NCBI GenBank assembly: GCA_003216295.1
Contig: QCJB01000010.1
Coordinates: forward strand, 1 to 55,337
Origin: Prochlorococcus sp. AG-402-P16
GTDB lineage: Bacteria > Cyanobacteriota > Cyanobacteriia > PCC-6307 > Cyanobiaceae
Length of the DNA stretch: 55,337 bases
Reading direction: 5' to 3'
Shown here: one piece after another, positions 9,870 to 55,337 of the stretch
Layout of the letters: the number at the start of each line of letters is the position of its first letter
How positions within the stretch are numbered: the first letter of the stretch is position 1
Notes under the pieces: model-generated
Database searches by the model: none
What the model was told of the DNA's origin: nothing
The model's input: only the letters and a program-made list of their open reading frames with translations
Made by a program: the position numbers and the translations under genes

Positions 9870-9956
9870 GGAGAGGTGGCTGAGTGGTCGAAAGCGAACG
9901 ACTCGAAATCGTTTGATAGCTACAACTATCCGTGGGTTCGAATCCCACCCTCTCCG
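9870..9956 (+). tRNA. tRNA-Ser (anticodon CGA)
   Basis: An 87-base class II tRNA. The acceptor GGAGAGG pairs with CCTCTCC, with G as discriminator. The D arm contains GGCTGAGTGGTCG and the anticodon loop reads ACTCGAAATC with CGA. A long variable arm (GATAGCTACAACTATC) is typical of serine tRNAs, and the T arm is GTGGGTTCGAATCCCAC. CCA is not encoded. The last 12-13 bases are repeated at 11269-11281, so the 3' end looks like an integration target. Confidence 0.97.
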
Positions 9957-39981: not shown

Positions 39982-40147
39982 TTTGTGAAAATCAAGTACT
40001 CAAGAGCTTTAGAAGTTTTGATGATGTAAAGAAAAAGCTTAAAAACTTTCCTTTGGAGATTTATAACTATATTTTCGCTGTTAAAGGGCACTATTGGGTT
40101 TAATTTAGTCAGATTAATCAGCTGGCGTCTTTTAAAGACCCATTTCA

Positions 40148-41239
40148 ATGCTTAAGGCCGGAATTGTTGGGCTCCCAAATGTTGGAAAGTCCACTTTGTT
40201 TAATGCTCTTGTCGCGAATGCTCAAGCTCAAGCAGCAAACTTCCCTTTTTGTACGATTGAACCCAATGTAGGCTCTGTTTCAGTACCGGATCAACGCTTA
40301 AATTTGCTTGGTGAACTCAGTAACAGTAAGCAAATTATTCCAACAAGAATGGAGTTTGTTGATATTGCTGGTCTTGTTAAGGGAGCAAGTAAAGGTGAGG
40401 GACTAGGTAACAAATTCTTAGCAAATATAAGAGAGGTGGATGCAATAGTTCATGTAGTTAGATGTTTTAGCGATGATGATGTTATTCATGTCTCTGGATC
40501 AGTAGACCCAGCAAGAGATATTGAGATAATAAATCTAGAATTAGCATTGTCTGATTTAAATCAGATCGAGAAACGTCAAACCAGATTAAAAAAACAAATA
40601 AGTACTAATAAGGAAGCAAAGTTAGAAGATGAGGTGTTGGAAAAATTAAGTGAAGCTCTTGAGAATGAAAAGGCAGTTAGGACTATCTCCTTGACTGATG
40701 AAGAAAAAAAATTAATTAAACCATTAGGCTTATTAACGGAAAAACCAATTATTTATGCAACTAATCTTGGGGAAGATGAACTTGCGAAGGGTAATTCCTA
40801 TTCAGAAAAAGTAAAGTTACTTGCAACGAAAGAAGATTCTGAATGTGTGAAGATTTCAGCCCAAGTTGAGGCTGAGTTGATTGAATTAGGAGAAGAGGAA
40901 AGAGATGATTATTTAAAAGGCTTAGGTGTTGAAGAAGGAGGTTTGAGCAGTCTTATTAAAGCTACTTATAGGTTGCTGAGATTAAGTACATATTTCACAA
41001 CTGGGGAGAAAGAAACAAAAGCTTGGACTATTTACGATGGGATGACTGCTCCTCAAGCTGCTGGAGTGATTCATACTGATTTTGAAAAGGGATTCATCCG
41101 TGCTCAAACAATTTCATATGAGAAACTTCTTGAGGCTGGTTCTCTAGTAGAAGCTAAAAATAAAGGTTGGCTTAGGAGTGAAGGGAAAGAATACGTGGTA
41201 AGTGAAGGAGATGTTATGGAATTTTTATTCAACGTATAG
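40148..41239 (+). CDS. ychF: Ribosome-associated ATPase YchF
   Basis: A 363-residue Obg-like ATPase. It has a G1 loop ([14 protein letters not shown]), [20 protein letters not shown] (G3 region), an adenine-specific NxxE-type loop in [10 protein letters not shown], a helical coiled-coil insertion, and a C-terminal TGS domain ([37 protein letters not shown]) ending [10 protein letters not shown]. YchF binds ribosomes and responds to oxidative stress. Its last ~30 bases are duplicated five times downstream (43901 to 52791), so the 3' end appears to serve as an integration site; the native C-terminus is intact. Confidence 0.96.
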
Positions 41240-41297
41240 CAGACTAGTCATAGTAAGGGTTCTCAAGGGTTAGACAAAACGCTTGTCTAACCTTTTT
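41210..41297 (+). repeat. Native ychF-end repeat (copy 0, attB-like) with terminator hairpin
   Basis: The ychF 3' end from 41210 (GATGTTATGG...) and the following ~60 bases are the reference copy of a direct repeat found again at 43901, 44017, 50412, 51853 and 52736. The segment 41222-41252 is identical for 31 bases to the 50412 copy. Downstream, GGTTAGACAA and TTGTCTAACC (41268-41292) form a perfect ten-base stem followed by five T residues, a good terminator for ychF. Confidence 0.8.
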
Positions 41298-41381
41298 GTC
41301 TAACTTTTTGAGACGGGAAAGGCTGTCTTTTTTTGAGACAGGGTGCCTAAATAATCAAATATCTAGGTAATAAAACAATAA

Positions 41382-41396
41382 TGATTATCGTTTTCA
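41382..41396. promoter_or_regulatory. Zur-box-like operator
   Basis: TGATTATCGTTTTCA has the TGA-N9-TCA frame and matches the cyanobacterial Zur consensus TGAWAAYNRTTWTCA (from memory) at all but one position. It sits 40 bases upstream of the COG0523/CobW-like start (ATG 41436). COG0523 genes are commonly Zur targets, so zinc-responsive control is plausible. It has not been tested. Confidence 0.45.
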
Positions 41397-41435
41397 TATC
41401 CAGTGTATATTCTTATACATTGATTTGTGTGCTGT

Positions 41436-42224
41436 ATGGGCAGCAATACGTGGCTGATTTCAGGATCGCCAGGCTGTGGCAAAACGAATTGGATTCTTAA
41501 TAATCTCAAGTCACACAAAGGTCGTTGTGGCTTTTTGCGTCTATCTGGTTACGGAGATATTGATCTACAGCAAGTAGCTTCTACAGATATTGACTATGCC
41601 TTTCTTAAAGATCAAATTCCTCAATTAATAGATTTATCAAGGTCCAGTACAGACTCTATTTCGTATCAAGATGATTCTTTGATATTGATTGAGCTTCCTC
41701 AGTTTCGAATTCCTAAAGAGCTTGGTTTGGCTGGAATTGATCCGCGCGTAATCAAACAACTTGCAACTTTAAATCTCGAACCAGATAAATACCTTCATTT
41801 TGGACGTGATAGGGAATTACCCATTAATGACACATTAAATTTCAATCAAATTGAATCATGCAGGTTCAAGCTTCATCGGAATGTTTGGGATCCACCTAGT
41901 CTGAATACCTTTTGGTTCGAACTGGTTAATGGTGCTTATGGAGATGTTTATAGAGCTAAAGCCTTGATGAATATCCCCGATGGTAGATCTATGTTCTTTA
42001 ACTGGATTGTTAGTCAAAAAGGTTCGCAATTTTTACCTCTTAATACTGTCTCACCTCCTAGTGGTAGACCTACAAGAATATCTGAACTTGTTGTTCAAGG
42101 GAAAAATCTTGACTCCGTACGAATTGAATCAACTATTCAGCTTTGTCTCTTGAATGATTCAGTTTTGGAGCTTCATCAAGCCCCTCTTAGAGATACACAA
42201 ATGCAGCCTAGTTATTCAACTTGA
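41436..42224 (+). CDS. Shortened COG0523/CobW-like protein
   Basis: 262 residues from ATG 41436 (an in-frame GTG at 41427 is possible). The Walker A loop is GSPGCGKT (10-17). The C-terminal ~110 residues (NTFWFELVNGAYGDVYRAKALMNIPDGRSMFFNWI) look like a CobW_C domain. The GTPase half is compact: I see neither the CxCC metal motif nor a clear NKxD guanine loop, so it may be a reduced metallochaperone relative. It heads a three-gene operon with two metallophosphoesterase-like genes behind a Zur-box-like site, suggesting a zinc-limitation response (inference). Confidence 0.7.
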   Translation: MGSNTWLISGSPGCGKTNWILNNLKSHKGRCGFLRLSGYGDIDLQQVASTDIDYAFLKDQIPQLIDLSRSSTDSISYQDDSLILIELPQFRIPKELGLAGIDPRVIKQLATLNLEPDKYLHFGRDRELPINDTLNFNQIESCRFKLHRNVWDPPSLNTFWFELVNGAYGDVYRAKALMNIPDGRSMFFNWIVSQKGSQFLPLNTVSPPSGRPTRISELVVQGKNLDSVRIESTIQLCLLNDSVLELHQAPLRDTQMQPSYST

Positions 42225-42228
42225 CGAT

Positions 42229-43044
42229 ATGAAACACGCAGTAATTTCTTGTTTACATGCCAATCTCTCAGCAGTGGAAGCTGTGCTAGGTGATATTGAT
42301 CGGCAAGGAATTGAGACCATTACATGTCTAGGCGATCTTGTTGGCTATGGTCCTCAGCCAAATGAAGTTGTTGAGCTTATTAGAGATAGGAAGATAGAAA
42401 CCTGTCAGGGTTGCTGGGATGAAGACATAATTGATGGTCTTGATGCTTGTGATTGCAGCTATCCATCTCAGCTTGCAGAAAGGCGAGGGCATATGGCTCA
42501 TCAATGGACAACGGAGAAGTTGACTGATGAAAACAAAGAATTTCTAGCTAGTCTCCCAACCTCGATTAGAAGAGGTAGATCGTTATTCGTACATGGAAGT
42601 CCCAACAGTCAGCATGAGTATCTGCTTCCAGATATGGATGCATTCGCAGCATTAGAACGAGTTGAGATGAGTGGAGCCGATACTTTGTTTTGCGGTCATA
42701 CTCATCTCCCATATGTACGTGAATTAGGGAATGGATCAATCCGCGTAAATATTAAAAATTCTTCCGATCGTGAAAGAGAAGATATAAAAATGACTTTACC
42801 TATTAGAAGAATTGTAAATGCTGGATCTGTCGGAGAACCTCGTCATGGAGGAGTAAATGCTACCTATGTTATTCATGACGAAATAAAGAATGATGTTGAG
42901 ATTAGAGAAGTTGCTTACGACATTGATCGAACATGTGAGGCAATTATTGAGGCTGGTCTACCCCATGTGTTTGCATGGCGTTTGAGCAACGGTTTTGAAT
43001 TTGCTGAACTGGCTGAAGATGCTAGCCACGTGTGCGAACGATGA
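42229..43044 (+). CDS. Metallophosphoesterase-like protein with cysteine-substituted metal site
   Basis: 271 residues from ATG 42229, four bases after the CobW-like stop; an upstream in-frame start inside that gene is rejected. It has a calcineurin-like fold: CLGDLVGYGPQP (Asp36), FVHGSP and GHTHLP are standard. However, the first motif D-x-H reads CLH (Cys8, His10) and GNH(D/E) reads GCWD (Cys62, Trp63, Asp64). Two metal ligands are thus replaced by cysteine. It may prefer a different metal or have altered activity. The next gene overlaps its stop as ATGA. Confidence 0.75.
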   Translation: MKHAVISCLHANLSAVEAVLGDIDRQGIETITCLGDLVGYGPQPNEVVELIRDRKIETCQGCWDEDIIDGLDACDCSYPSQLAERRGHMAHQWTTEKLTDENKEFLASLPTSIRRGRSLFVHGSPNSQHEYLLPDMDAFAALERVEMSGADTLFCGHTHLPYVRELGNGSIRVNIKNSSDREREDIKMTLPIRRIVNAGSVGEPRHGGVNATYVIHDEIKNDVEIREVAYDIDRTCEAIIEAGLPHVFAWRLSNGFEFAELAEDASHVCER

Positions 43045-43754
43045 TTGAACGTTGGGCACTTTTAAGTGGTCTTATGGGTGATCTTGAGACCTATGAATTG
43101 ATTCAAAAAGATTTAAAAAATACTCGCGGAGATATAACTCTTTTTGTTTTAGGAGACGTTGTAGGACCAGATAAGAATTGTGATGCACTTTTAAATAGAT
43201 TAATAAATCCTCATCGTGGTGATTTGAAACCTCACTGTATCTATGGCTGGTGGGAGGAACAATTATTGGCAGAATCAGGTTACCGTGGGGAGAGAAAGGC
43301 AGATGCTTTACGACTCAATAAAGGAGACGATGCTGTCAATGCTCTTATGAATGCTGTAGATCCATATTATTTGGGATGGATATCATCACTACAATTTGGA
43401 TTTGTAGAACTTGATTGTGGTTTGATTCATGGAAGCTCAAAAGATGTAGGAGACATTCTGACAATGCAAACACCTCCACTTACTCTTCTTGATCGAATTA
43501 CCCGCCTTAATGTGAATAGATTATTCACAGCTAGAAGTAAACAGCAATTTCATCTTGAGTTGACTGATGCTGTAGTTGATTCAAAAGTAAAAGATTTAAA
43601 TGGAAAACGAAACCAGGAACATACTCTTCCTAAACGTGCAGTGATAGGAATTGGAGCAGGGGCTAATTACACTCTTTATGACGTTGGCAGTGATCAGACT
43701 CACTTCTTAACGGTGGGAGATGTCACTAAATCCAGAGGGCGAGGGTTCGCGTAA
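43041..43754 (+). CDS. Degenerate metallophosphoesterase-like protein
   Basis: 237 residues from ATG 43041, translationally coupled to the previous gene by ATGA. It shares its outline: LLSGLMGDLETYELI where D-x-H should be, FVLGDVVGPDKN (motif II intact), IYGWWEEQL in place of GNHD, and LIHGSSKDVGD. The GHxH motif is not recognisable (LFTARSKQQFHLEL). With most metal ligands missing it is probably non-catalytic, perhaps a partner subunit for the gene upstream (inference). A hairpin terminator follows at once. Confidence 0.65.
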   Translation: MIERWALLSGLMGDLETYELIQKDLKNTRGDITLFVLGDVVGPDKNCDALLNRLINPHRGDLKPHCIYGWWEEQLLAESGYRGERKADALRLNKGDDAVNALMNAVDPYYLGWISSLQFGFVELDCGLIHGSSKDVGDILTMQTPPLTLLDRITRLNVNRLFTARSKQQFHLELTDAVVDSKVKDLNGKRNQEHTLPKRAVIGIGAGANYTLYDVGSDQTHFLTVGDVTKSRGRGFA

Positions 43755-43756
43755 CC

Positions 43757-43776
43757 ATTCTTTCCGAAAGAATTTT
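43757..43776 (+). terminator. Terminator of the CobW-phosphoesterase operon
   Basis: ATTCTTT and AAAGAAT form a seven-base stem with a CCG loop followed by a short T run, immediately after the stop codon of the third gene. Confidence 0.65.
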
Positions 43777-43817
43777 AAGGATAGTTAGTTCAAAGACTTA
43801 TTGGAATCTCAAGATGG

Positions 43818-43984
43818 CTCGTCTGGTTGTCTAACTTTGTCTAACTTTTTAGCGTTTATGTCTAACCGCGATTTTTGCTCGTAATCGACTGGTATAACTG
43901 GATGTGATGGAGTTTTTATTCAACGTCTAAAAAGTCTGTAATACCAAGGGTTCTCAGGGGTTAGACTAAGGCTTGGTCTAACCC
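43818..43984 (+). repeat. ychF-end repeat copy 1 with left end block and hairpin
   Basis: Left block 43818-43900 includes GTCTAAC at 43829, 43839 and 43860. Positions 43818-43875 match 51771-51828 at 57 of 58 bases. The core at 43901 (GATGTGATGG, then TTTTTATTCAACGTC) repeats the ychF 3' end. GGGTTAGAC and GTCTAACCC (43958-43984) rebuild the downstream hairpin of the native site. Confidence 0.75.
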
Positions 43985-43999
43985 TGATTTTTGCTCGTA

Positions 44000-44070
44000 A
44001 TCGATTGGCATGACTGGACGTTATGGAGTTTTTATTCAATGTATAAACCTTCAGTCATAGAAGGGTTCTA
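44000..44070 (+). repeat. ychF-end repeat copy 2
   Basis: Left-block sequence GTAATCGATTGGCATGACTG is followed by the core from 44017 (GACGTTATGGAG, TTTTTATTCAATGTATAA) and GAAGGGTTCT. It lies only 116 bases from copy 1 and encloses no gene. The remaining bases up to 44186 hold no gene and probably the promoter of the next one. Confidence 0.7.
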
Positions 44071-44186
44071 AAATATTCTCAATAGACTTCTGTCCTGTCT
44101 TGCTCTAACTTTGTTTTAAACTTAAATCATGTTTTTTTTTGCGAAATTCTAAGTGAAAAATATTTGGATTATGTAAGAATTACTAT

Positions 44187-45746
44187 ATGGATAGTGCTAG
44201 TTCGCTGTTTAAGGCTAAAAAATATAAAGAGACAATTCATATATGCATCCAATTGTTAGATAAGAATCCTGATTTGATAGAGGCTTTAAAGCTAATCTCA
44301 AAATCTCTTTTAGCAATAAACCAGATTGATAAAGCACGTTTATATTTAAATAAAGCCTTAAAAATTAATCCTGACGATTATGAGATTTTTAAAGACTTAG
44401 GAAATACATATCAAGCTTGTGGAAAGATTGATATTGCTAAAGGTTATTATCAACAAGCGATAAAAATTAATAGTTCTTATGCTCCAGCATTAACGAATCT
44501 TGGTAATGTTGAAATCATAGGTGGAAATAAAAATGAAGGAATATCACTACTTGTAAAAGCAACGGAATGTGACCCAAAACTTACCTCAGCCTGGAGAAAC
44601 CTGGCAAATGGTTATATACAGCTAGGAAATATGAAAAAAGCTGAAATTTCAATCAACAAATCTATAGAACTAAATCCACATCATTTTAACTCTTATTTTC
44701 TTCTTTCCACTATTTTAATCGCTCAAAACAAACTGGAATCGGCTGAACAATCTCTTCTAAAAGCAATTGAATTGAAACCTGAACTTTGTCAGGCACATAT
44801 AAATCTTGGAGCTGTATTGAAAGACTTAGGGAAATTGCAAGAAGCTGAAAGCTCCATACGCAATGCAATAGAAATTAATCCATATTTATTTAATTCATAT
44901 TTTCTTCTTGCCATGATACTAATTGAACAAAAAAAATTAAAAGAAGCAGAAAAATCTCTTCGCAAAACAATTGAACTCAACCCTGATTTTGGACATGCCC
45001 ACATAGTCCTAGGAGAAGTTTTACAAGACTTAGGCAAATCACAAGAGGCAAAACTGGAAACCAAGAAAGGTGTAGATGCATGTTTTATTCAACATATTGA
45101 TTCAAAATCAAAAGACAAATGTTTGAAAAACTTAAGTCTTTCAAAATCTCAATTTAGACAAGACTTATTTACCTTAAGTGAGCTAGGTTTCAAAAAAAAT
45201 GGTTTCTTCGTGGAATTTGGCTCATGTGATGGTTTAGTTGGTTCAAATTCTTACCTTCTAGAAAAATTCTATAATTGGAATGGTATTTTAGCTGAACCAG
45301 CACTGTATTGGCATCAAAGACTTAAAAGGAATCGTTCAGTAAATATAGAAACTAAATGTGTATGGAAATCTTCTGGGAAAGAAATTTTCTTTAATGAACC
45401 ATTTGAATATAAACAGAAATCCTCAATAGAAGAATTTACTAATATTAAACAAACACCCTACAAAGAAGGCAAACGGTACCAAGTCACAACAATTTCATTA
45501 TTAGATTTGTTAGACCTTTATAATGCACCAAAAAATATAGATTACTTATCGTTAGATACTGAAGGTAGTGAATATGAAATACTAAAGGCCTTTGATTTTA
45601 ATAAATATAGGTTTAATGTAATCACATGTGAACATAATTTTACTTCTATGCGAGATAAAATCTATAATTTATTGACTAGTAATGGTTATAAAAGAAAATT
45701 AACGGAGATATCAAGAGTAGATGATTGGTATGTTTATTGTGGATAA
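44187..45746 (+). CDS. TPR protein fused to FkbM-family methyltransferase
   Basis: A 519-residue protein. Residues 1-~300 are TPR units, the first 150 or so closely resembling the N-termini at 11452 and 46268 (SLLAINQIDKARLYLNKALKINPDDYEIFKDLGNTY, INSSYAPALTNLGN). Residues ~315-519 form an FkbM methyltransferase: SQFRQDLF, FFVEFGSCDGLVGSNSYLLE (SAM-binding motif I), WNGILAEPA, and NIDYLSLDTEGSEYEILKAFDF. It probably O-methylates a sugar in a surface glycan. It starts with a normal ATG, unlike the next two genes. Confidence 0.82.
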   Translation: MDSASSLFKAKKYKETIHICIQLLDKNPDLIEALKLISKSLLAINQIDKARLYLNKALKINPDDYEIFKDLGNTYQACGKIDIAKGYYQQAIKINSSYAPALTNLGNVEIIGGNKNEGISLLVKATECDPKLTSAWRNLANGYIQLGNMKKAEISINKSIELNPHHFNSYFLLSTILIAQNKLESAEQSLLKAIELKPELCQAHINLGAVLKDLGKLQEAESSIRNAIEINPYLFNSYFLLAMILIEQKKLKEAEKSLRKTIELNPDFGHAHIVLGEVLQDLGKSQEAKLETKKGVDACFIQHIDSKSKDKCLKNLSLSKSQFRQDLFTLSELGFKKNGFFVEFGSCDGLVGSNSYLLEKFYNWNGILAEPALYWHQRLKRNRSVNIETKCVWKSSGKEIFFNEPFEYKQKSSIEEFTNIKQTPYKEGKRYQVTTISLLDLLDLYNAPKNIDYLSLDTEGSEYEILKAFDFNKYRFNVITCEHNFTSMRDKIYNLLTSNGYKRKLTEISRVDDWYVYCG

Positions 45747-46267
45747 ATAGGTTGATTAAATATGCAAAACTAAAAATAGAAATCAAGTATAAGGATCATA
45801 TAATCAATGAGTATAGGTTGTTTTTTATTTGATTAAGTTCTTATATTTATTATATCATCAAAAAGTTTTAAAAGAATGTTCTTTTGAATAAGTTAATTTG
45901 AAGATTTGAAATAGTCTCAAATCTTACTAAATAGTGTAATGATAATGATAGATTGGTAAAATATTATTCATGCAATTAAAAATATTCTTCTTGTTTGCTA
46001 TTTGCATGGTTTCGTTAGTACTAAACGTTCTCATCTGTTTAGATTAGTTAGACTTTAATCAATATAAAATTAAAAGGTGAGTTAGTAAAAAATTAATATT
46101 TCGATCTAATAAAAAAGAACGAAAAGGTAGATACCTTGCTCGAAAATATTCTAATAAGCAACAAGCTAAAAAGTATTTTTCCTATTGTGAATAGTTCCTT
46201 TTATAACCAAATATGAAAAATCAAATATCAGCCTGTTATATTAATTGTATGGATTGCTTTCTTAGAC
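45747..46267. other. Long AT-rich intergenic stretch inside the island
   Basis: About 520 bases with no open frame of useful length. One GTTAGAC heptamer (46047-46053) matches the island's repeated word in inverted orientation, possibly by chance. TATATTAAT-like sequence near 46235 could be a promoter -10 for the TTG-started gene downstream. Nothing else is evident. Confidence 0.4.
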
Positions 46268-48655
46268 TTGGAAAAGAGTATTGATATAGCCCAATCACTC
46301 CTTAGACAAAAGAAATATCAAAAGGCAATAGATACTTGCAGAGAGATATTAGAAGTTGATAGTAACTCTTTAATTGCTTTAAAAGTGATCTCCATATCCT
46401 TACTAGCAAACAACCAAAGTAAAGAGGCCCGTTTATATCTCACTCAAGCATTAGATCTTGATCCTGATGATTATGAATTGATTAAAGATCTTGGTAATAC
46501 ATTTCTTGTAGAAGGAGATCTCTCCAGAGCAAAAATATACTATCAGCAATCACTATCTATTAACAATTCATATGCTCCTGCTCTCACCAATCTTGGAAGC
46601 ATTTCACTCAAGTCTAGAAATAATAAAGATGCACTATCTTTTTTAAAAAGAGCAACAGAAGCTGATCCTTCCATAGCAATTGCCTGGGAAAAGCTAGCCA
46701 ATGCTTATCTTCAATCTAATGAATTAAAACATGCTGTATCTGCTTGTCACAAAGCTCTTGGTCTCAACAGAAATCTCTTTAATTCTCATTTCCTTTTAGC
46801 AAATATCTACCTTCAACAAAAAAAACTATCGGACGCTGAGACTCATTTACATCAAACAATTCAAATTAAACCTGATTTTGCTGAGGCTCATTACAATCTT
46901 GGAATCATATTAAAAGAACTTGGCCAATTAGAAGATGCAGAATTATCTACTCGAAAAGCTATTGAATTAAAACCTGATCACGCAGAAGCTTTTAATAATC
47001 ATGGAATCATATTAAAAGATCTTGGCCAATTAGAAGATGCAGAATTATCTACTCGAAAAGCTATTGAATTAAAACCTGATTACGCAGAAGCTTTTAATAA
47101 TCATGGAATTATTTTAAAAGATCTTGGCCAATTAGAAGATGCAGAACTATCTACTCGAAAAGCTATTGAACTTAAACCTGATTTCACTACAGCTTATTAT
47201 AATCTAGGAAATATTTTAAATGATCTTGGTCAATTAAAAGACGCAGAATTTTCTACTCGTAAAGCTATTGAATTAAAACCCGACTTCGCAGAGGCTTATA
47301 ATAATCTTGGTACTATTTTAAAAGAGCTTGGTAAATTAGAGGATGCAGAATTATCTACTCGAAAAGCTATTGAATTAAAACCTGATTTCCCTAATGCATA
47401 TTACAATCTAAGTCATATATTAATAGATCAAGATAGACTAAAAAAAGCAGAAATAGTACTTAAAAAAACGATAGAATTAAAACCCAATTTTGCAGAAGCA
47501 TACAATAGTCTAGGAAGTATTTTAAAAGATCTTGGTAAATTAGAAGAAGCAGAAATATCTACTCGTAAAGCTATTGAATTAAAACCTGATTATGCAATGG
47601 CTTATTCTAATCTTGGTAATATTTTGGTTGATAATGGAAAGATTCAAGAGGGTGAGTTATTGAGTCGCAAAGCTATAGAAATTAATCCTGATTTTGCCGA
47701 TGCTCGTTTCAATCTTGCATTAATACAACTTTTAAATGGTAATTATGAATCTGGCTTTTTCAATTATGAATTTAGAAATAAAAAAAACAGTCCAATATAT
47801 CCCCATGCTAAGCCAATGATTGAGAGAATAGATGTGGAAAATCTTATACAAGGACAGAAGATTTTAGTGGTCAGTGAACAAGGATTAGGTGATACATTGC
47901 ATTATATGAGATATATTCCCTATATTAGAAAAAAAGGTTTTGATATTACCTTTTGTGCTCCAAGAAAATTACACCCTCTGATAAAAAGTTCTGGTATTGA
48001 TAATAATCCAATAGATCCAGATGATGTACATAAAATCGACTCTGGTGTATGGATATCCCTATTATCTCTTCCAAAATATTTAGGAATTAATCCTAATAAA
48101 GTTATTATAAATAATCCATATATCCATGCAAGAGATGAACTTAATTATAAATGGAAAAGTATTCTTGCAGAAGAAAATAAACCCATTATTGGTATTTATT
48201 GGCAAGGAAATCTTAAAATGGAAAAATTTTATCAGGGTCGATCATTCCCTTTAGAAACTTTTAAATTAATACAAGAGCAAAATGATATAAAATTTCTTTC
48301 ATTACAAAAAGGAAATGGTTCAGAACAAATAAAAGATTGTTCTTTTAAAGAAATATTTGTTAATTCTCAGGATGAAATTGACAAGACTTGGTGCTTTGAG
48401 GAAACAGCAGCTATTATGGAAAATTGTGATTTAATAATAAGCATAGATAGTTGTTGTGCAACAATGGCTGGAGGTATGGGTAAGGAAGTTTGGCTTCTTC
48501 TCAAAGACATTCCATATTGGACTTGGGGCATGCAAAGTGACAAAACTTTCTGGTACCCTTCTATGAGGTTATTTAGACAAGAAGAAAAACATAATTGGCA
48601 GAAAGTGATCGAAACAGTTTCATTTGAACTTCAGCAAAAAATATGGAATAAATAA
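46268..48655 (+). CDS. Large TPR protein fused to a GT9-like glycosyltransferase domain
   Basis: A 795-residue protein with about a dozen 34-residue TPR units (residues ~1-500, consensus LGQLEDAELSTRKAIELKPDFAEAYNNLGIILK) and a C-terminal GT9-like domain (VVSEQGLGDTLHYMRYIPYIRKKGFD; NCDLIISIDSCCATMAGGMGKEVWLLLKDIPYWTWGM). It is a paralogue of 11452-13527 across the whole length, but with extra TPRs. The start is TTG 46268; the N-terminus aligns with both paralogues. Three central TPRs are nearly identical in DNA (46919-47224). A glycosylation role is inferred from the domain. Confidence 0.82.
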   Translation: MEKSIDIAQSLLRQKKYQKAIDTCREILEVDSNSLIALKVISISLLANNQSKEARLYLTQALDLDPDDYELIKDLGNTFLVEGDLSRAKIYYQQSLSINNSYAPALTNLGSISLKSRNNKDALSFLKRATEADPSIAIAWEKLANAYLQSNELKHAVSACHKALGLNRNLFNSHFLLANIYLQQKKLSDAETHLHQTIQIKPDFAEAHYNLGIILKELGQLEDAELSTRKAIELKPDHAEAFNNHGIILKDLGQLEDAELSTRKAIELKPDYAEAFNNHGIILKDLGQLEDAELSTRKAIELKPDFTTAYYNLGNILNDLGQLKDAEFSTRKAIELKPDFAEAYNNLGTILKELGKLEDAELSTRKAIELKPDFPNAYYNLSHILIDQDRLKKAEIVLKKTIELKPNFAEAYNSLGSILKDLGKLEEAEISTRKAIELKPDYAMAYSNLGNILVDNGKIQEGELLSRKAIEINPDFADARFNLALIQLLNGNYESGFFNYEFRNKKNSPIYPHAKPMIERIDVENLIQGQKILVVSEQGLGDTLHYMRYIPYIRKKGFDITFCAPRKLHPLIKSSGIDNNPIDPDDVHKIDSGVWISLLSLPKYLGINPNKVIINNPYIHARDELNYKWKSILAEENKPIIGIYWQGNLKMEKFYQGRSFPLETFKLIQEQNDIKFLSLQKGNGSEQIKDCSFKEIFVNSQDEIDKTWCFEETAAIMENCDLIISIDSCCATMAGGMGKEVWLLLKDIPYWTWGMQSDKTFWYPSMRLFRQEEKHNWQKVIETVSFELQQKIWNK
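46919..47224 (+). repeat. Near-identical 102-bp tandem repeats inside TPR gene
   Basis: Units beginning CTTGGCCAATTAGAAGATGC start at 46919, 47021 and 47123, exactly 102 bases apart (34 codons). They differ by only a few bases, while the outer TPR units are much more diverged. This indicates recent unit duplication or gene conversion, and a likely spot for length variation. Confidence 0.85.
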
Positions 48656-48763
48656 TAATTGAAGCGATATAATAAAATAATTAGACATGCTAATTTAGAA
48701 ATAAAGACACAAAAGCAATTATAGATTATATGATACAATTGATTAGCTTAAAAATCTACTAAT

Positions 48764-50026
48764 TTGGATTGTCGAAAAAGTATAAAAACAATTGATCGAT
48801 GCATAGTCTGTGAAGGAAAAAATTTGCAAAGTATATTCTCTCTGGATAATATATTTTTAACAGGTTATTTTCCATTAAAAAGTGAATCAAATATCGTTAA
48901 TACTTCAATAAATCTAAATATTTGTAAAGATTGCAATAGTATACAAATGAGAGAGAAAGTAGATCCTAAGGATATGTTTGTTAAGTATTGGTATCGTTCA
49001 TCAACGACTAATACTATGAGAGACCATCTTAGTAAGATAATCTCTCTATATGGTTTTGCAAAAGGTCGTCTATTTGATATTGGCTGTAATGATGGAACGT
49101 TAATTAAGTTTGCGGATAGTATTGGAATGGAAGCCTTTGGAATTGATCCATCAAACGCTATTGAGGAAATACCACAAAAGTATAAAAAAAAAATATTTAA
49201 TGAATTCTTCAGCCTAAGTTTTTGTAAGACCAAACTAATTGGTCTAAAAAATTCATTTGATTTAATAACAGTGATTTCAATGTTCTATGATATCTCTGAT
49301 CCAATCGAATTCTTATCCGGCATAAAATTTCTTTTGAAGAATACTGGAAAGGCTGTAGTTGAGGTTAATTACGCAAAGGACTTCTTTAATAAAAAAAATG
49401 TAGATATGCTTGGCCAAGAACATTTAATCTATTATTTCATAGAAACATTCGAAAAAATCTGTATAAAATCTGGACTATTTCTTCACGACTCATATCTTAC
49501 AGAAATGAATGGAGGGAATATAACCTTTATTATTACCAAGTCCAATATGGGGAAAACTGAAAACCTAAATAAATTAATTCATAAAGAGAAAGAGTGGTTA
49601 AACAAGTTTAATTTTTATATTTTCGAAGATAATGTTAAGAATGAATTTAAACTTTTTGTTAAATGGCTTAAAGAAAAATCTAATTTTTCTTCCATTAAAA
49701 TTCTTGGTGCCTCTACTAGAGGCGCATTAATATCTCAAATGTTAAAGCTAGATAACACAATAATTGATTCAGCTGTTGATTTGCAAATCAATAAAAAGGG
49801 TAGAATGATGCCTGGAACAAATATTTCAATTGAACTTGATTCAGAGCATGAAATACCAGATTGCTATTTAGTTATGCCCTATCAATTTAAAAAGGAGATT
49901 ATAAATCGATATAGCTCTTTTTTGGAGAATGGTGGAGAATTAATTTTCTATAGACCTAATTTTTCGATAGTGAAATACAATATAAAAGAAAAAAATATTA
50001 TTGAAGAACTAATTGATTTGCGTTAG
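48764..50026 (+). CDS. Sugar C-methyltransferase-like SAM enzyme
   Basis: 420 residues from TTG 48764. The N-terminus has a zinc-binding motif (CIVCEGKNLQSI...NLNICKDCNSIQM, two CxxC pairs) and KYWYRSSTTNTMRDHL. These are followed by a SAM-binding domain (GRLFDIGCNDGTLIKFADSIGMEAFGIDPSN) and a C-terminal half with LGASTRGALISQMLKL and PDCYLVMPYQFKKEII. This three-part layout is that of NDP-sugar C-methyltransferases (NovU/TylC3 type). It would modify a deoxy-sugar nucleotide for the glycans built by neighbouring transferases. It lies about 108 bases after the TPR-glycosyltransferase. Confidence 0.8.
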   Translation: MDCRKSIKTIDRCIVCEGKNLQSIFSLDNIFLTGYFPLKSESNIVNTSINLNICKDCNSIQMREKVDPKDMFVKYWYRSSTTNTMRDHLSKIISLYGFAKGRLFDIGCNDGTLIKFADSIGMEAFGIDPSNAIEEIPQKYKKKIFNEFFSLSFCKTKLIGLKNSFDLITVISMFYDISDPIEFLSGIKFLLKNTGKAVVEVNYAKDFFNKKNVDMLGQEHLIYYFIETFEKICIKSGLFLHDSYLTEMNGGNITFIITKSNMGKTENLNKLIHKEKEWLNKFNFYIFEDNVKNEFKLFVKWLKEKSNFSSIKILGASTRGALISQMLKLDNTIIDSAVDLQINKKGRMMPGTNISIELDSEHEIPDCYLVMPYQFKKEIINRYSSFLENGGELIFYRPNFSIVKYNIKEKNIIEELIDLR

Positions 50027-50143
50027 TTATAAATTTAAATATGTTAATTCATAATAATTTTACCTATTTCTTTCTTGAGCTTAAAAGATTAGTTTTTTAT
50101 TTTTCTAGTGATTTACTAGAAGCCACGACAGTAAGTTGCAGCA

Positions 50144-50222
50144 TTACTGAAAAATCTTGGATAAAGTTTTAGATTTTAGGCAGTGACGGCTAACCGACGT
50201 ACGGCTTCAAGGTTTTCAGTAA
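50144..50222. repeat. Inverted repeat pair in non-coding DNA
   Basis: TTACTGAAAA (50144-50153) and TTTTCAGTAA (50213-50222) are exact reverse complements enclosing 59 bases, including the G+C-rich tract GACGGCTAACCGACGTACGG. The region 50027-50360 has no gene. It could be a structured RNA, a relic of an element end, or a regulatory site. Confidence 0.4.
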
Positions 50223-50359
50223 AAACAACTAATGTATTTTGAAAGTTTTTGTTAACTAATTCTTAGATTGTTGATCTGACTATATCTATAATGTTATGAA
50301 GCTACTACGGCTTTAATCAGAACGCTTTGGGGTGGAGCTGTTTCAATTTTGTTCTACTC

Positions 50360-50470
50360 TTCTAACTTACGTCTAACCGCAATTTTTGCTTGTAATCAAC
50401 TGGTATGACTGGACGTGATGGAGTTTTTATTCAACGTATAGCAGACTAGTCATACCAAGGGTTCTCAGTA
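50360..50470 (+). repeat. ychF-end repeat copy 3 with left end block
   Basis: Left block: TCTAACTTAC, GTCTAACC (50371), then GTAATCAACTGGTATGACTG. The core from 50412 matches the native ychF end from 41210 with about five differences over 57 bases, including 31 identical bases (TTTTTATTCAACGTATAGCA and the 11 that follow), so it also carries the native stop codon and 3' flank. Confidence 0.8.
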
Positions 50471-50522
50471 TTCTCAAAAGAGCCTTGTCGAACTTTTTTG
50501 CCTCGTCTGGTAGGCGTTTCAT

Positions 50523-51146
50523 TTAATCCATATCCATTGGTGAAGTGATTGATGTTCCTCTGCATTTTGGGTGATTTTTATTCCATGCACCATTTCGACA
50601 AGCTAATGGTATTTTCTTTTTCTTGGTTTTTTTAGACCAGTCTTTAATTGGTTCATTGTCGTATGGGTTTAAGCCTTTATCCCTTCCTTGTGTATCTTGA
50701 GGACCTTGGCTTCCTGGATATCGATAATTAGGATTTGGAAGATAATCTTGTCTTTTCCATTTCATGAAAGCTCTCATGAAATCTCTTTGAGCAAATTGAT
50801 GAGCAAATAGAAAAAGTGCTTCCTTTGTTTCTCCATTTTGTCCTCTATAAGTTATGTAGTTGTAATGATCTTCATCTACATAAAGGCCATCACCTCCATC
50901 TTTGTCATAGCGATACCGAATTAACTGAGATATATCGATTCCACCTTTCCCCTCTACCCACATTGATCTTCCTTGGAAGCGAATTCGACAATCATTTGTT
51001 AGGAAACGGCACCAGCCATCGTGATAGCTCCTATGACCTTCTTTAAAAGTATCCAATGGAAAATCAGCATCACCAAAATCAGCTTTTACTGGTGAAATAA
51101 AAGCAATTAGTGCAGTGAAAAAAAATATGTTGAGGGTCTTTTTCAC
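50523..51146 (-). CDS. Exported hypothetical protein
   Basis: A 207-residue protein with a signal peptide (KKTLNIFFFTALIAFISPVKA) cleaved before DFGDADF. The mature part has four cysteines in two clusters (GWCRFLTNDCRIRF and LACRNGAWNKNHPKC), plus aromatic-rich segments (YNYITYRGQNGETKEALFLFAHQFAQRDFMRAFMKWKRQDYLPNPNYRYPG) and a lysine run (KKTKKKK). The family is not recognised. It starts three bases after the stop of the membrane-anchored gene at 51150, forming a two-gene unit read opposite to the other cassettes. Confidence 0.55.
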   Translation of the reverse strand: MKKTLNIFFFTALIAFISPVKADFGDADFPLDTFKEGHRSYHDGWCRFLTNDCRIRFQGRSMWVEGKGGIDISQLIRYRYDKDGGDGLYVDEDHYNYITYRGQNGETKEALFLFAHQFAQRDFMRAFMKWKRQDYLPNPNYRYPGSQGPQDTQGRDKGLNPYDNEPIKDWSKKTKKKKIPLACRNGAWNKNHPKCRGTSITSPMDMD

Positions 51147-51149
51147 TTT

Positions 51150-51686
51150 TTATTCTTCTAAACATACAAAAGCCATTTTTTCATAGTTGTACCTGCCATC
51201 AAAAGCTCTTGGTGAAGAAATCCATTGCGCACCCATTAGCTGACAAGTATCGACATCTTTCATAGGTATTGTATCGAGAGCGAAGGTGAAGCCTCCCACG
51301 TTGACTAATCCAGGTACGTCTTCTCTACCACCGTATTTAAGTACCAACCAAACTTTGACCTCGTCACCGCTTGCTTGTCCTATAGCTTTTAATGCTTCTT
51401 TCCTTGCTGCTTTAACTTCAATTAATGCATTTGTTCTGTCTGATTTGAGTTCATTTAGGGAGCTGGATCTGATTATGTTCAATTCTTTAATTACTTCTGA
51501 TCTAATTGATTGGACTTCAGATAAAGCATCTTTCCTTGCTTTTTTAAGTTCAAACATTGTTTTAGCTAGTTGATTTTCTGCGTTGTTGCTTTTTCTTAAA
51601 ACAGTTGAAACTTGAGTCCAAGCTATTGCAAGTAAACACGCAGCACTTAAAGCAGCTGAAACTTGATAGATAGAAAACTTTCCCAT
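51150..51686 (-). CDS. Membrane-anchored coiled-coil protein, hypothetical
   Basis: A 178-residue protein: one N-terminal transmembrane helix (IYQVSAALSAACLLAIAWTQV), a coiled coil of about 75 residues with repeated SEVxxIRSEV/ELKSDRTNALIEVKAARKEALKAI units, and a C-terminal globular domain of about 70 residues (EVKVWLVLKYGGREDVPGLVNVGGFTFALDTIPMKDVDTCQLMGAQWISS...FVCLEE) with two cysteines likely to be disulfide-bonded. The topology suggests a domain displayed on the periplasmic side. The family is not recognised. It is the first gene of the minus-strand pair. Confidence 0.55.
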   Translation of the reverse strand: MGKFSIYQVSAALSAACLLAIAWTQVSTVLRKSNNAENQLAKTMFELKKARKDALSEVQSIRSEVIKELNIIRSSSLNELKSDRTNALIEVKAARKEALKAIGQASGDEVKVWLVLKYGGREDVPGLVNVGGFTFALDTIPMKDVDTCQLMGAQWISSPRAFDGRYNYEKMAFVCLEE

Positions 51687-51770
51687 TAGTTTTTATATCG
51701 TCATATCATTCTGGTTTAGCTCGTCTAGCTTTAGCTAGATTGCCTAGTTTTATGAATAGATTTTAATACT

Positions 51771-51905
51771 CTCGTCTGTTTGTCTAACTTTGTCTAACTT
51801 TTTAGCGTTTATGTCTAACCGCGATTTTGCTTGTAATTAATTGGTATAACAGGAAGTTATTGAGTTTTTATTTAACGTCTAGAAACAAGTCATACCAGGT
51901 TTCTT
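51771..51905 (+). repeat. ychF-end repeat copy 4 with left end block
   Basis: Left block 51771-51852 contains GTCTAAC at 51782, 51792 and 51813 and matches copy 1's block over 58 bases with one difference. The core from 51853 (GAAGTTATTGAG, TTTTTATTTAACGTCTAG) is the most diverged copy. The remaining bases to 52016 hold no gene and probably the next promoter. Confidence 0.7.
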
Positions 51906-52016
51906 GATATGCTCGATTGGCTTCTGTTTTAACTTTGTGATGGTTTTTAAGAACGCTTAGTTGGCTAATTTCTTAATTAGTTAATGGTAGAAAATGATTA
52001 ATCTTTACTAGGAGAA

Positions 52017-52637
52017 ATGGTTTTTTATGGAGAAAATATAGATATACTGGAAAAAATACAAATAAATATGAAGGGTGAAAACAAGTCTCAGCTTAACATT
52101 AAGATTGATCCGAAACTCTTGCTTAGATTGAAGTCTAAGGCAATTAAGAGTGGAAAAACACTAACAGCTTTTATCACTGAACTATTAGAAGAAGGTTCTA
52201 TCAAGGCGATCAGTGATATTGAAATCCTTGAAAAGAGACTCTTAAGAATAGAAGAAAAACTTAATTTGAAGGAAAATTTCTGGTCTGATAAAGAAGAAGG
52301 TTTAAATCAAAGTGAGTGTATTTTTTCTGATAGTGGAGCAAAGAGATATGGTGAGATCGCTAGAGAATTGTTTGAGTTTCATCGGAAAGAAAAGAAACTT
52401 TCTTTGGAAGAGGCCATCTCAGAATTATCTACCTTTCTTGGTAAGTATGATAGTCAACCTGAACTAGTGTTTGAAATCCTCTTGGGGAGTCATGAATTAA
52501 CAGGTTTAGAAATGACAGATGCCTACAGAAATGGATCTTGTGGAATGAGAAGCGCTCTATCTGATTGGGCCAAGAGTTCTTTAGAGCCATTAAACGAAGC
52601 TTTTCTAAAAGCGGTCGATGCTAAAAATCTTGTTTGA
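52017..52637 (+). CDS. Ribbon-helix-helix protein, putative regulator
   Basis: 206 residues from ATG 52017, with AGGAG two bases upstream; a second in-frame ATG at 52068 precedes the domain directly. The segment SQLNIKIDPKLLLRLKSKAIKSGKTLTAFITELLEEG is an Arc/MetJ-type ribbon-helix-helix DNA-binding domain. The remainder is helical and acidic (coiled-coil EKRLLRIEEKL, then a ~120-residue domain) without a recognised family. It is the sole gene between ychF-end copies 4 and 5, so it could regulate the island or be an orphan antitoxin-like regulator (inference). No toxin gene is adjacent. Confidence 0.6.
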   Translation: MVFYGENIDILEKIQINMKGENKSQLNIKIDPKLLLRLKSKAIKSGKTLTAFITELLEEGSIKAISDIEILEKRLLRIEEKLNLKENFWSDKEEGLNQSECIFSDSGAKRYGEIARELFEFHRKEKKLSLEEAISELSTFLGKYDSQPELVFEILLGSHELTGLEMTDAYRNGSCGMRSALSDWAKSSLEPLNEAFLKAVDAKNLV

Positions 52638-52684
52638 CTACAGATTGATCGATCTGATGCAAATTTCTCTTAATGCTTGAGCTG

Positions 52685-52800
52685 TTCTAACTTAAGTCTA
52701 ACCGCAATTTTGCTTGTAATCTGTTGGTATGAAAGGACGTGATGGGGTTTATATTCAACTTATAGCAGTCCAGTCATACTTAGTTTCTCAGCATTCTCAA
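52685..52800 (+). repeat. ychF-end repeat copy 5 with left end block
   Basis: The left block TTCTAACTTAAGTCTAACCG (52685) closely matches that of copy 3. The core from 52736 (GACGTGATGGGGTTTATATT, CAACTTATAGCAG) is followed by CAGTCATAC and TTCTCAGCATTCTCAATAGAG. Diverged from the native end but clearly homologous. The stretch 52638-52949 contains no gene. Confidence 0.7.
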
Positions 52801-52949
52801 TAGAGCTTTTCTAACTTCTTAAAACCTTATATGAAATAATCCCTAAGTCAAAATATATTTCATTGCTCGCGTTGTTGTATTCGTTATATAGATAAAAACT
52901 AGAATAAATTGATAAGATAGAATTTATTCCTAATATAATATAAATAAAT

Positions 52950-53828
52950 ATGGAAGTTGCTGGTAAAAATGAGCGTGAAGATAATCAAGTTGCTGAAGTA
53001 AATACATACCCAGTTCCATTATCTATGTTCAAAATAAAAAATAACTTATCTATCTCAATTAATAGTTCGTCAAAAATCTCTAGAGAAAATCTAATTAATA
53101 AGGCATTTTACTTTCATTCTGAGGGTGATCTTGCAAATGCTGAAAAATATTATCAACTTTTCATAAATCAAGGTTTTAATGACTACAGGGTTTTTTCTAA
53201 TTATGGAATAATCTTACAAAAATCAGGTAAATTTAGAGAGGCAGAATTATTAACTCGGAAAGCAATTTTGCTAAATCCTGATTTCGCAGAGGCTTATTCT
53301 AATTTGGCAATTATTTACGAAAATCTTGGCAACTTAGAAGAATCAGAAAAATTATTTCGTCAAGCAATTGAAATCAACCCTGATCTTGCAGAGGGGTATT
53401 CAAATCTGAGCAGGATCTTGAGAGATCTAGGGAAATTAGAAGAAGCAGAAATCACATCAAGAAAAGCGATTAGACTTAACCCTAATTATGCAAATGCCTA
53501 TTATAACTTGGGAACCATATTTAGTGATCTTGGCAATTTAGAGGAAGCAGAAGTATCATTCCGAAAAGCAATTAGACTTAATCCTAATTATCCAAATTCT
53601 TATCATAACCTGGGAACAATATTGAAAGATCTTGGAAAAGTTGATCAAGCTATTTTAAATTACGAGAAATCTATAAAATTAAAACCAGATCTCTATGAAA
53701 GCTTCACTGGCCTGGGCTTTTTACTTTTAATTAAAGGCCAATATAAAAATGGATTAAAAATGTTAAAAAAAGGAGATGGTACTATCTCCTTTGATTTAAA
53801 GAATGGTGTATCAGTAAATAGGTTATGA
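52950..53828 (+). CDS. TPR protein coupled to 2OG-Fe(II) oxygenase
   Basis: A 292-residue soluble protein: a ~50-residue non-repeat N-terminus, then about six TPR units (FREAELLTRKAILLNPDFAEAYSNLAIIYENLGNLEESEKLFRQAIEINPD), ending GDGTISFDLKNGVSVNRL. Its TGA overlaps the ATG of the oxygenase gene (ATGA 53825-53828), so the two chains are made together. In the other island TPR proteins the enzyme domain is fused; here it is split into a separate gene. The TPR domain probably presents or recognises the protein or glycan substrate (inference). Confidence 0.75.
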   Translation: MEVAGKNEREDNQVAEVNTYPVPLSMFKIKNNLSISINSSSKISRENLINKAFYFHSEGDLANAEKYYQLFINQGFNDYRVFSNYGIILQKSGKFREAELLTRKAILLNPDFAEAYSNLAIIYENLGNLEESEKLFRQAIEINPDLAEGYSNLSRILRDLGKLEEAEITSRKAIRLNPNYANAYYNLGTIFSDLGNLEEAEVSFRKAIRLNPNYPNSYHNLGTILKDLGKVDQAILNYEKSIKLKPDLYESFTGLGFLLLIKGQYKNGLKMLKKGDGTISFDLKNGVSVNRL

Positions 53829-54430
53829 TTAAGACTTTTGAATTAAACAAATCTGAACTAACCCCTAATTTTATTGGGTCTTGGTTCATAGAAAATAACT
53901 TATGTGATGAATTGATAGCTTTTTTTGAAAGTAATCAAAAGAATCAAGAGCAAGGTGTTGTAGGAAGTAAAGGATCTATTAATTTAGAAATGAAAAATAG
54001 AATAGATTTAAGAATCTCCCCAAAGGATATAAATTTTAATAATGATAATCTATTTAAAAATTATTTTGAAAATTTATTTGAATGTTATAAAGACTATAAT
54101 AATAAGTGGCCTTACTTATCCAAGATTGCTAGCCATTTAGAAATAGGTGCATTTAATATTGGTAGATATGAAACTGGTCAACACTTTCAAGAAACACATT
54201 GCGAAAGGTCTGGAATAGGAAATCTTCATAGACTTTTTGCTTTTATGACTTATTTAAATAATGTTGAACAAGGAGGAACTACATATTTTGATAATTATGA
54301 TCTAGAAATAGAACCTAGGAAAGGTCTAACCTTAATTTGGCCAGCAGAGTGGACTCATACCCATAGAGGAAATAAAGTTATAAAAGGTTGTAAATATATG
54401 ATTACAGGTCATCTAAATTTCTCTTCTTAA
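53825..54430 (+). CDS. Phage-type 2OG-Fe(II) oxygenase (prolyl-4-hydroxylase superfamily)
   Basis: A 201-residue protein of the prolyl-4-hydroxylase superfamily in the form common in T4-like cyanophages. The block GRYETGQHFQETHCERSGIGN is followed by RLFAFMTYLNNVEQGGTTYF and LTLIWPAEWTHTHRGNKV. Proximal ligands are His125 and Glu127 (H-x-E rather than the usual H-x-D), the distal His is 178 (or 180), and a Lys about ten residues later could bind 2OG. It would hydroxylate a protein or small molecule. It overlaps the TPR gene by four bases. Confidence 0.78.
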   Translation: MIKTFELNKSELTPNFIGSWFIENNLCDELIAFFESNQKNQEQGVVGSKGSINLEMKNRIDLRISPKDINFNNDNLFKNYFENLFECYKDYNNKWPYLSKIASHLEIGAFNIGRYETGQHFQETHCERSGIGNLHRLFAFMTYLNNVEQGGTTYFDNYDLEIEPRKGLTLIWPAEWTHTHRGNKVIKGCKYMITGHLNFSS

Positions 54431-54867
54431 TAATTGGAAACTAGGTTTTTTCCTAATAATAACGTGACAAGATATTTGTTTTTATTTCTTGAGAGCTTTT
54501 TCTCATAATTCTTGTATGAATCGATTTTGATAGAGACAGAAAATGTTGCTGACTCTATGGATCTTTTTACCCTCATTATTTCTATCTATATCTTTCCTAA
54601 GAGAAATTATCTTATAACCTATAACTATTTGAGAAATTATGGTTTTAATATTCTATTTCTATAGTAAGTAATTTTCAAGATAGCCTAGGTGAAGGTTTTA
54701 GCGGATCTCAATATTGCTCGAAAAAAGCCTAACTTTTGTTGTACTGCTCTAAAAAGTGTTTTTTGGGCTGAAAATCTAAAAATTCGAATTGATAGTAATA
54801 AGCTTTTATTCTAATTCTAAAAAAAAGTATCGGATGAATTTCTTGAAGGTTTTAATTACATAAAAAA
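54431..54867. other. AT-rich non-coding stretch at the island's end
   Basis: About 440 bases without a convincing gene or further ychF-end copy. Words such as GCCTAACTTTTG (about 54727) recall the island's repeats only weakly. Nothing else can be supported. Confidence 0.4.
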
Positions 54868-54886
54868 GCTGCAAGTTAATTGCAGC
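54862..54886 (-). terminator. Terminator of the 45-residue gene
   Basis: GCTGCAA and TTGCAGC (54868-54886) form a perfect seven-base stem with a GTTAA loop. On the minus strand it is followed by a run of T (plus-strand A run 54862-54867), about 60 bases after the stop codon of the gene at 54945. Confidence 0.75.
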
Positions 54887-54944
54887 CCATAAAAATAGTT
54901 TTTTTTTTTTTTAATATGCCAAATCAAAAATTAGATTTTTTATA

Positions 54945-55082
54945 TTAAACAAACAGAGCTGAAGCAACCCCAGCAACAGCTATTACTATTCCACCCCACT
55001 TAATGACAGGCTGATTTTTGTCGTAGGTATTTGAAACAAGAATTGCGGCGAGAAGGATCTCTACAAGGTTCTCATTAATCAT
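54945..55082 (-). CDS. 45-residue small membrane protein
   Basis: Minus-strand frame from ATG 55082: it begins MINENLVEILLAAILVSN and ends AVAGVASALFV. It contains two hydrophobic stretches (about residues 6-17 and 30-45) separated by a charged turn (TYDKNQPVIKW). A dedicated terminator lies downstream on the same strand, which supports its being a real gene despite the size. The family is not recognised. It may mark the return to backbone DNA beyond the ychF island. Confidence 0.5.
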   Translation of the reverse strand: MINENLVEILLAAILVSNTYDKNQPVIKWGGIVIAVAGVASALFV

Positions 55083-55337
55083 GGGTCGAAGCCAGAAATG
55101 TAGTTGTTGATACTTTTTCTAGCGAATCTTTGGCAAAGAAGCAACAAATATTAAGTAAGCAACGAACTATTTGTGCCAAAAGTAGAAAAGCGACTGAATT
55201 AAGATGCCTGATCAGATTTATTAGATGTGTATGCACCTATGATTTTATTGAAGATTTGAATATCATTCATTAATACGAGTTGCTTAGTATTTCAATAGTT
55301 TTCTGTTTTTAAATTGTTTTATTTGGTTACTTTTAAT
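55083..55337. other. Window end, no gene recognised
   Basis: The last 255 bases show no open frame I can support; an upstream promoter for the 45-residue gene is expected here. The window boundary may cut off a gene further right. Confidence 0.3.

Follow-up and report, generated by a model that had tools for sequence, protein, structure and literature searches.

We analysed a 55,337-nt stretch of DNA from Prochlorococcus sp. AG-402-P16 (contig QCJB01000010.1, hereafter the window), in which a row of gene cassettes separated by direct repeats follows the 3' end of ychF. The array was real and genus-wide. We put a probability of roughly 80% on the reading that it is an integron-like cassette array with composite sites, served by a tyrosine recombinase acting in trans. 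Comparison of loci gave the anatomy of the sites, the joins within their core, the shifting positions of cassettes, the recent spread of some and the lack of a recombinase in the stretches seen. Circular cassettes and an enzyme in trans are what we infer.

The open reading frame (ORF) of ychF was intact (363 aa, 40148..41239, + strand), and its last ~10 codons and stop codon formed the presumed attB core. A sequence-only reading of the window had reported six repeat copies in a single orientation, and these were found again at the same positions when the letters were rechecked. The 31 consecutive identical bases common to the native and 50412 copies were also recounted on the alignment. The description of the repeats as copies of the ychF end was accurate for the core, but the five non-native copies had an extra ~40 bp upstream that was missing from ychF. 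The native site (B-O-P', 41210..41301, +) matched the site model from position 43 on and was followed by TGTCTAAC repeats. The internal sites (P-O-P', all +) were located at 43860..43957, 43976..44073, 50370..50468, 51813..51904 and 52696..52791, and the four other non-native copies showed 71-86% identity to the 50384 copy. A 96-nt query from the 50412 copy matched the six array places of the source genome (G000) at E 4e-43 to 1.6e-16. The six remaining matches elsewhere in this genome (1.59 Mb, 83% complete) had E 0.46 to 1.6, which was the chance level, and the idea of a general dispersed repeat failed in G000. A weak extra match at 45075-45097 (family D10) inside a TPR gene was regarded as chance. 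The second internal site was found 116 bp beyond the first with no ORF of 60 aa between them. This confirmed the empty interval that had been noticed there, but such intervals were rare in the genus loci (3/82). The array had been traced to 52.8 kb. It did run that far, but continued with one more cassette to a decayed right end (54820..54886, +), where no copy exceeded the site-model threshold and the terminator GCTGCAAGTTAATTGCAGC (B') was located at 54868-54886. It was followed by a conserved 45-aa ORF of the chromosomal right flank (54948..55082, −), which was found in 18/35 loci.

The site model was applied to 35 loci from 30 genomes, namely the window and 34 others. It detected 120 copies, and each locus had a single orientation. 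Matches from position 39 or later were given by the 28 native copies and one internal copy, while 87 were near-full and four were of other kinds. Thirty of the 41 genus genomes had copies. ychF was detected in 29 of the 41, and the native site with its arm in 28 of these 29, the exception being G009. Ten of the 11 genomes lacking copies also lacked a ychF match, and two genomes (G008 and G026) had pieces of the array while ychF was not found. One of the 28 native loci (G025) was cargo-free, with just 116 nt from ychF to the terminator, and the contig of another genome (G010) ended at the native site. An empty site was looked for in relatives and one apparent case was obtained. In G009, where the core had three changes, ychF and the terminator were separated by 52 nt without an arm; this site looks empty. 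Both cargo and spacing differed among the genus loci. Relatives with other cargo bounded by the same core had been predicted, and they were observed; identical spacing and cargo in all relatives, which would have spoken against an array, was not.

The sites were composite, consisting of core and arms, and were not bare ychF ends. Sites took the form B-O-P' next to ychF and P-O-P' from one cassette to the next, and some loci also had P-O-B' on the right-hand edge. The last copy of several loci passed from a decayed core into AAAAAAGCTGCAAATTATTTGCAGC. The core was flanked by inverted arms (TTGGTATGACTGG ... CCAGTCATACCAA) and GTCTAAC repeats. The arm spacing was measured with a regular expression and was readable in 21/28 native and 41/92 other copies. 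The distance from the stop codon to the arm was 4 nt in all 21 readable native sites and in 40 of the 41 others, and 3 nt in the exception. Hybrid half-sites around a shared core, as in an att array of a tyrosine recombinase, were present. When other genera and outgroups were scanned (35 loci), a regular expression for both arms gave no match. Hairpin-like GTTAGAC..GTCTAAC stretches were observed behind several copies. Single-stranded folding was better than that of shuffled sequences for the 50370 site (z −2.63) and a site of L052 (z −4.57). It was no better for the native site (−0.01) and three other window copies (−0.94, −0.43, 0.25).

The position of the joins was examined with a half-site permutation test on 86 non-native sites, using gapped arm comparison and 2000 permutations. 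Of 117 sites, three were excluded from the breakpoint and arm comparisons for their weak cores (13, 12 and 13 of 21 bases), and in both comparisons sites with unknown or empty neighbours were left unlabelled. For sites sharing the upstream cassette, the similarity of left arms was 0.796 compared to 0.737 expected (0/2000 permutations), while the right arms of the same pairs gave 0.710 vs 0.703 (323/2000). For sites sharing the downstream cassette, right arms gave 0.754 vs 0.705 expected (0/2000), and left arms 0.753 vs 0.747 (480/2000). Left half-sites tracked the upstream cassette and right ones the downstream cassette; therefore, the join was placed within the ~21-bp ychF-like core GGAGTTTTTATTCAACGTATA. 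By this comparison, the joins are site-specific and inside the core. Ungapped per-base breakpoint curves did not separate same-upstream pairs from unrelated pairs, and the gapped comparison was used instead.

ORFs of at least 60 aa were called mechanically and filtered for overlaps. There were 99 closed intervals, 82 between two copies and 17 ending at the right flank; ten of the latter were stubs without an ORF. The between-copy intervals had a median of 2.27 kb and held no ORF in three cases, one in 29, two in 17, three in 29 and more in four. Tandem exchangeable cassettes, as in integrons, were observed. The CobW cassette (families F0-F2), found in 14/35 loci, occupied position 0 in nine loci, position 2 in one and position 3 in two; its position was unknown in two fragments. 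The F5-F7 cassette was at positions 0, 0, 1, 1, 1, 2 and 4 in its seven loci. The median nucleotide identity between genomes was 0.972-0.985 for F0-F2 and 0.974-0.981 for F5-F7, compared to 0.902 for ychF (25 genomes, 300 pairs). Among the pairs with a ychF value, identity was above that of ychF in 66/66 for F0-F2 and 21/21 for F5-F7. Judged by these identities, two cassette types spread recently between species. Pairs above ychF were also counted for F14 (2/3), F21 (1/1) and F24 (1/1). Cargo proteins of at least 90 aa, 93 representatives in all, were scanned with Pfam, PHROGs and PADLOC. Among the 25 commonest of 122 Pfam and 72 PHROGs families, the commonest Pfam matches were TPR-type, as were several PADLOC matches.

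In the window, the first cassette (41427..43754, +) had three genes. They had been labelled as CobW plus two phosphoesterases. A CobW_C-like protein (Pfam E 6e-4, under the cut-off) and one calcineurin-like phosphoesterase were recovered, and the third gene had no Pfam match. A palindrome at 41380-41440, ahead of this cassette, was seen by eye and is presumably Zur-box-like, which suggests that the cargo is zinc-regulated. The next cassette with genes (44187..50026, +) encoded a TPR/FkbM-methyltransferase protein, a TPR protein and a C-methyltransferase. It was followed by two genes labelled earlier as putative exported proteins (50523..51686, −), a single-gene cassette of family F3 (52017..52637, +) and the last cassette (52950..54430, +), with a TPR protein judged by its repeats and a 2OG-Fe(II) oxygenase. 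The F3 protein gave no Pfam match, and putative ribbon-helix-helix is the earlier label for it. F3 was present in 12/35 loci and was in several the sole gene of its cassette; a role as directionality factor or antitoxin is a guess. A tRNA-Ser at 9870-9956 was the window's only tRNA.

No recombinase had been noticed inside the array, and this held across the 41 genomes, where no PF00589 or PF00239 match fell at array coordinates. A hidden Markov model (HMM) of the core tyrosine recombinase gave no match among array ORFs of 150 aa or more (871 ORFs, 114 sources). The Pfam and PHROGs families seen were the 25 commonest; therefore, rare array recombinases were excluded by the coordinate comparison and the HMM alone. 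The core enzyme (G000:C4, ~390 aa) adjoins a gene read as cobA/btuR. It was detected in 186/201 genomes of the family, 127/130 near-complete ones and 10/10 sampled from the genus, while some PF00589 match was present in 38 of the 41 genomes. The R of GLR, the K of KTG, GHS and TY were invariant in 44 homologues; LRHA was likewise invariant but had served as the selection filter. The profile matched one PDB sequence, an XerC-like recombinase (E 0.0036). Two earlier studies describe xerC as rare in cyanobacteria (PMC5101192) and report that dif prediction failed in five cyanobacteria tried, which were said to have XerCD (PMC3025954).

A recombinase beside a ychF core was sought in other genomes, and a tyrosine recombinase was found in G173, of another genus. 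This 459-aa protein was encoded directly behind ychF (L231:7119-8498; PF00589 above the cut-off). The order was ychF core and arm (L416:989-1036), recombinase (1119-2498) and a second core (19/25 bases) at 8305. G173 probably carries a single 7.3-kb ychF element with its own tyrosine recombinase. A resolvase-like gene was also seen by eye in this element (L416:989-8330).

The 18-nt arm motif CCAGTCATACCAAGGGTT was found with ≤2 mismatches in 62/201 genomes of the family and 35/59 genera, compared to two for the reversed control. To our knowledge, no function has been assigned to it, and not every copy is att-like. The arm keeps a fixed distance from the core, which points to a role in integration. 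Among 30 short loci, the motif was located 4 nt behind rpsD in seven loci of seven other genera and 3 nt behind ychF in one, G173; rpsD was recognised from its translation (..VVEYYSRKV*). Several of these loci had the same arm with a third core (CATTAGCCAGTAG/AATAG). This core or a near form was noted in L229, L251, L253, L254, L259, L262, L431, L432 and L439, the last three near large integrase frames. rpsD 3'-end sites with the same arm motif stood in a row in sister genera, three in G093 (L223) and four in G059 (L226). In G093, a gene read as pilin-like was located between two of them. Further such sites in a row were noted in L227 (G053). A motif copy at 8799 within a coding region was regarded as chance, and one before a tRNA-Leu-like sequence, identically placed in four of the genus genomes, appears to be vertically inherited.

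The strongest alternative, which we hold at somewhat short of even, was that the cassettes are stacked satellites. Each would be a degenerate tycheposon-like element that a helper integrase had integrated a single time, and the arms would be the helper's attP together with replication signals. This explanation overlaps with an integron-like array and differs by denying a cell-owned cassette system. It was favoured by the integrase-bearing element of G173 and by seven regions of other genera (L364, L394-L397, L399, L405), where the core-family HMM detected tyrosine recombinases 41-207 bp from the arm motif. These came from 17 sampled regions, at least two of them picked for an integrase match on the same contig. 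The HMM matched seven ORFs beside the motif and that of G173, and left a 475-aa ORF of L402 unmatched. Ten ORFs that lay next to the motif or on a contig carrying it were submitted to Pfam, and PF00589 was detected in three, one under the cut-off. ARAGORN found a tRNA-Ser in L394 only, and tRNA-like ends seen by eye elsewhere were not confirmed. Integrase frames of ~524-541 aa were also present near the motif in four loci (L431, L432, L437, L439).

Exact motif copies were found in 46 IMG/VR contigs. In the 18 inspected, the motif was downstream of a replication gene in five (D5/NrS-1-type, Prim-Pol/DUF3987, DUF3987 or primase-type), which also favoured stacked satellites, and upstream of a DUF5906 gene in one. 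With the E limit relaxed to 10, a 30-base version matched 24 records of plasmids (Priestia 10, Planococcus 4) and 122 of phages (Synechococcus 57, Bacillus 18); the phage records were often near-identical, and some matches were surely chance. In three plasmids inspected, a rep gene was 0.2-1.2 kb from the motif, and TTGGTATGACTGG appears in a rolling-circle origin used in PMC7072734. By eye, many copies of CCAGTCATACCAAGGGTT could fold into a small hairpin with iteron-like repeats on both sides (viral L310-L355, plasmids H1-H24, phages H25-H64). Rfam gave one sub-threshold match in seven phage-contig loci. Against stacked satellites, the 35 array loci showed no integrase, most intervals had 1-3 ORFs, among which no common mobility gene was noticed, and the 21-base ychF-core pattern matched 0 viral contigs.

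Homologous recombination alone, with the repeats left over from a small number of old integrations, seemed improbable. It would fit the many decayed arms and some shared cassettes that reach past the core, but half-site linkage switched across the core, the window copies were only 71-86% identical to the 50384 copy, and the spacing was constant. Duplication of a terminator or regulatory RNA with its genes was very improbable, because the hairpin-like stretches and the clear folding of two of six tested sites were set against unrelated cargo between copies, half-site linkage, ORFs in both directions (112 with and 62 against ychF) and an Rfam search of 40000-55337 with two sub-threshold matches, both away from the repeat sites.

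For the integron-like array, we propose that the unit is a cassette, in which no recombinase was found, with one composite site. Its circular form would carry P-O-P', a ychF-like core between inverted arms and GTCTAAC repeats. Acting in trans, a tyrosine recombinase would join the O of the circle to the O at the ychF end or at a resident cassette. Joining would regenerate the ychF end and leave B-O-P' at the gene, P-O-P' inside and P-O-B' at the far edge, and later loss and reordering of cassettes would be allowed. The enzyme would be, with about even odds, the core ~390-aa recombinase or a tycheposon-type integrase. A bolder version is offered tentatively and with more doubt than belief. It holds that picocyanobacteria have the equivalent of a chromosomal integron, in which a domesticated core tyrosine recombinase would insert and shuffle cassettes lacking a recombinase at the 3' ends of essential protein genes (ychF in this genus; rpsD in sister genera). 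It would do so by way of composite sites, the arm motif of which also occurs in phages, small plasmids and integrative elements.

Several observations weighed against the integron-like array. The evidence for empty sites was thin, and the G009 site could be a scar of loss. The permutation test ignores the relatedness of genomes. The BLAST edges of shared cassettes fell in the core in 7/21 and 7/78 pairs on the left and 5/21 and 26/78 on the right, and the median left edges were 65 and 77 nt inside. Pairs above ychF identity were few for F3 (3/55), F4 (0/21), F8 (0/15), F17 (0/3) and F9 (1/6), and F22 (0/1) and F13 (1/3) likewise spoke against general recent mobility. Since several recurrent families were no closer than ychF, much of the cargo is old. 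Many arrays ended at contig ends, and a recombinase could lie beyond view. The core enzyme is present nearly everywhere, and it can therefore not be picked out by co-occurrence. The arm motif was found beside phage and plasmid replication genes and is perhaps no recombinase site. Among 30 relatives of the G173 integrase, its own locus included, the motif was absent within ~1.5 kb at 24 and present at six with three mismatches allowed.

The array was compared with known systems. Integron attC sites have R'' and R' boxes with crossover at GTTRRRY, and CALINs are clusters of attC sites without an integrase. Like these, the ychF array has tandem exchangeable cassettes with one site each, a fixed anchor, an order that varies by strain and an enzyme presumably in trans. 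Unlike them, its anchor is a protein gene 3' end, the joins are in a gene-shared core and not in an R' box, and cassette genes have either orientation. GTCTAAC/GTTAGAC in the flanks fitted the R-box consensus, and this candidate was rejected since the joins lie in the ychF-like core.

The sequence-only reading had likened the array to tycheposons of Prochlorococcus with a ychF target. The ychF target and the accreted cassettes stood, but the reordering was more integron-like than one tycheposon per site. Tycheposons are alike in forming cargo islands at gene 3' ends (PMC10872708), and the arm motif is also near some integrases. Here, the target is ychF and not a tRNA, many small cassettes are in a row, and no element-borne tyrosine recombinase was found in the array stretches examined, arrays cut by contig ends excepted. 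In additive flexible genomic islands, the final 20 bp of tRNA-Lys recur as repeats (PMC10872708). There too, gene 3'-end repeats separate accreted gene sets, but at a tRNA end, whereas a protein gene, arms and half-site linkage were observed here. The pdif modules moved by host XerCD (PMC6449649) are similar as recombinase-free modules bounded by sites of a host enzyme, here a putative one. The G173 element shares the ychF 3'-end core and the arm motif, 3 nt behind the stop codon. It differs by its own 459-aa recombinase, a weaker right core (19/25 bases) and being probably a single element. Sister genera have rpsD and other cores in place of ychF. Among the titles and abstract openings listed for ychF, tycheposons, genomic islands, integrons, XerC/dif and the motif letters, none described such an array; its novelty is provisional.

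Prochlorococcus has a small, streamlined genome and yet a large shared gene pool, and the route by which genes enter is an open question. The ychF end seems to be a docking site for interchangeable, reshuffled cassettes that pass between species. A genus-wide array in which the joins map to a ~21-bp core, and from which two kinds of cassette recently spread across species, offers a concrete route of gene entry together with candidate enzymes.

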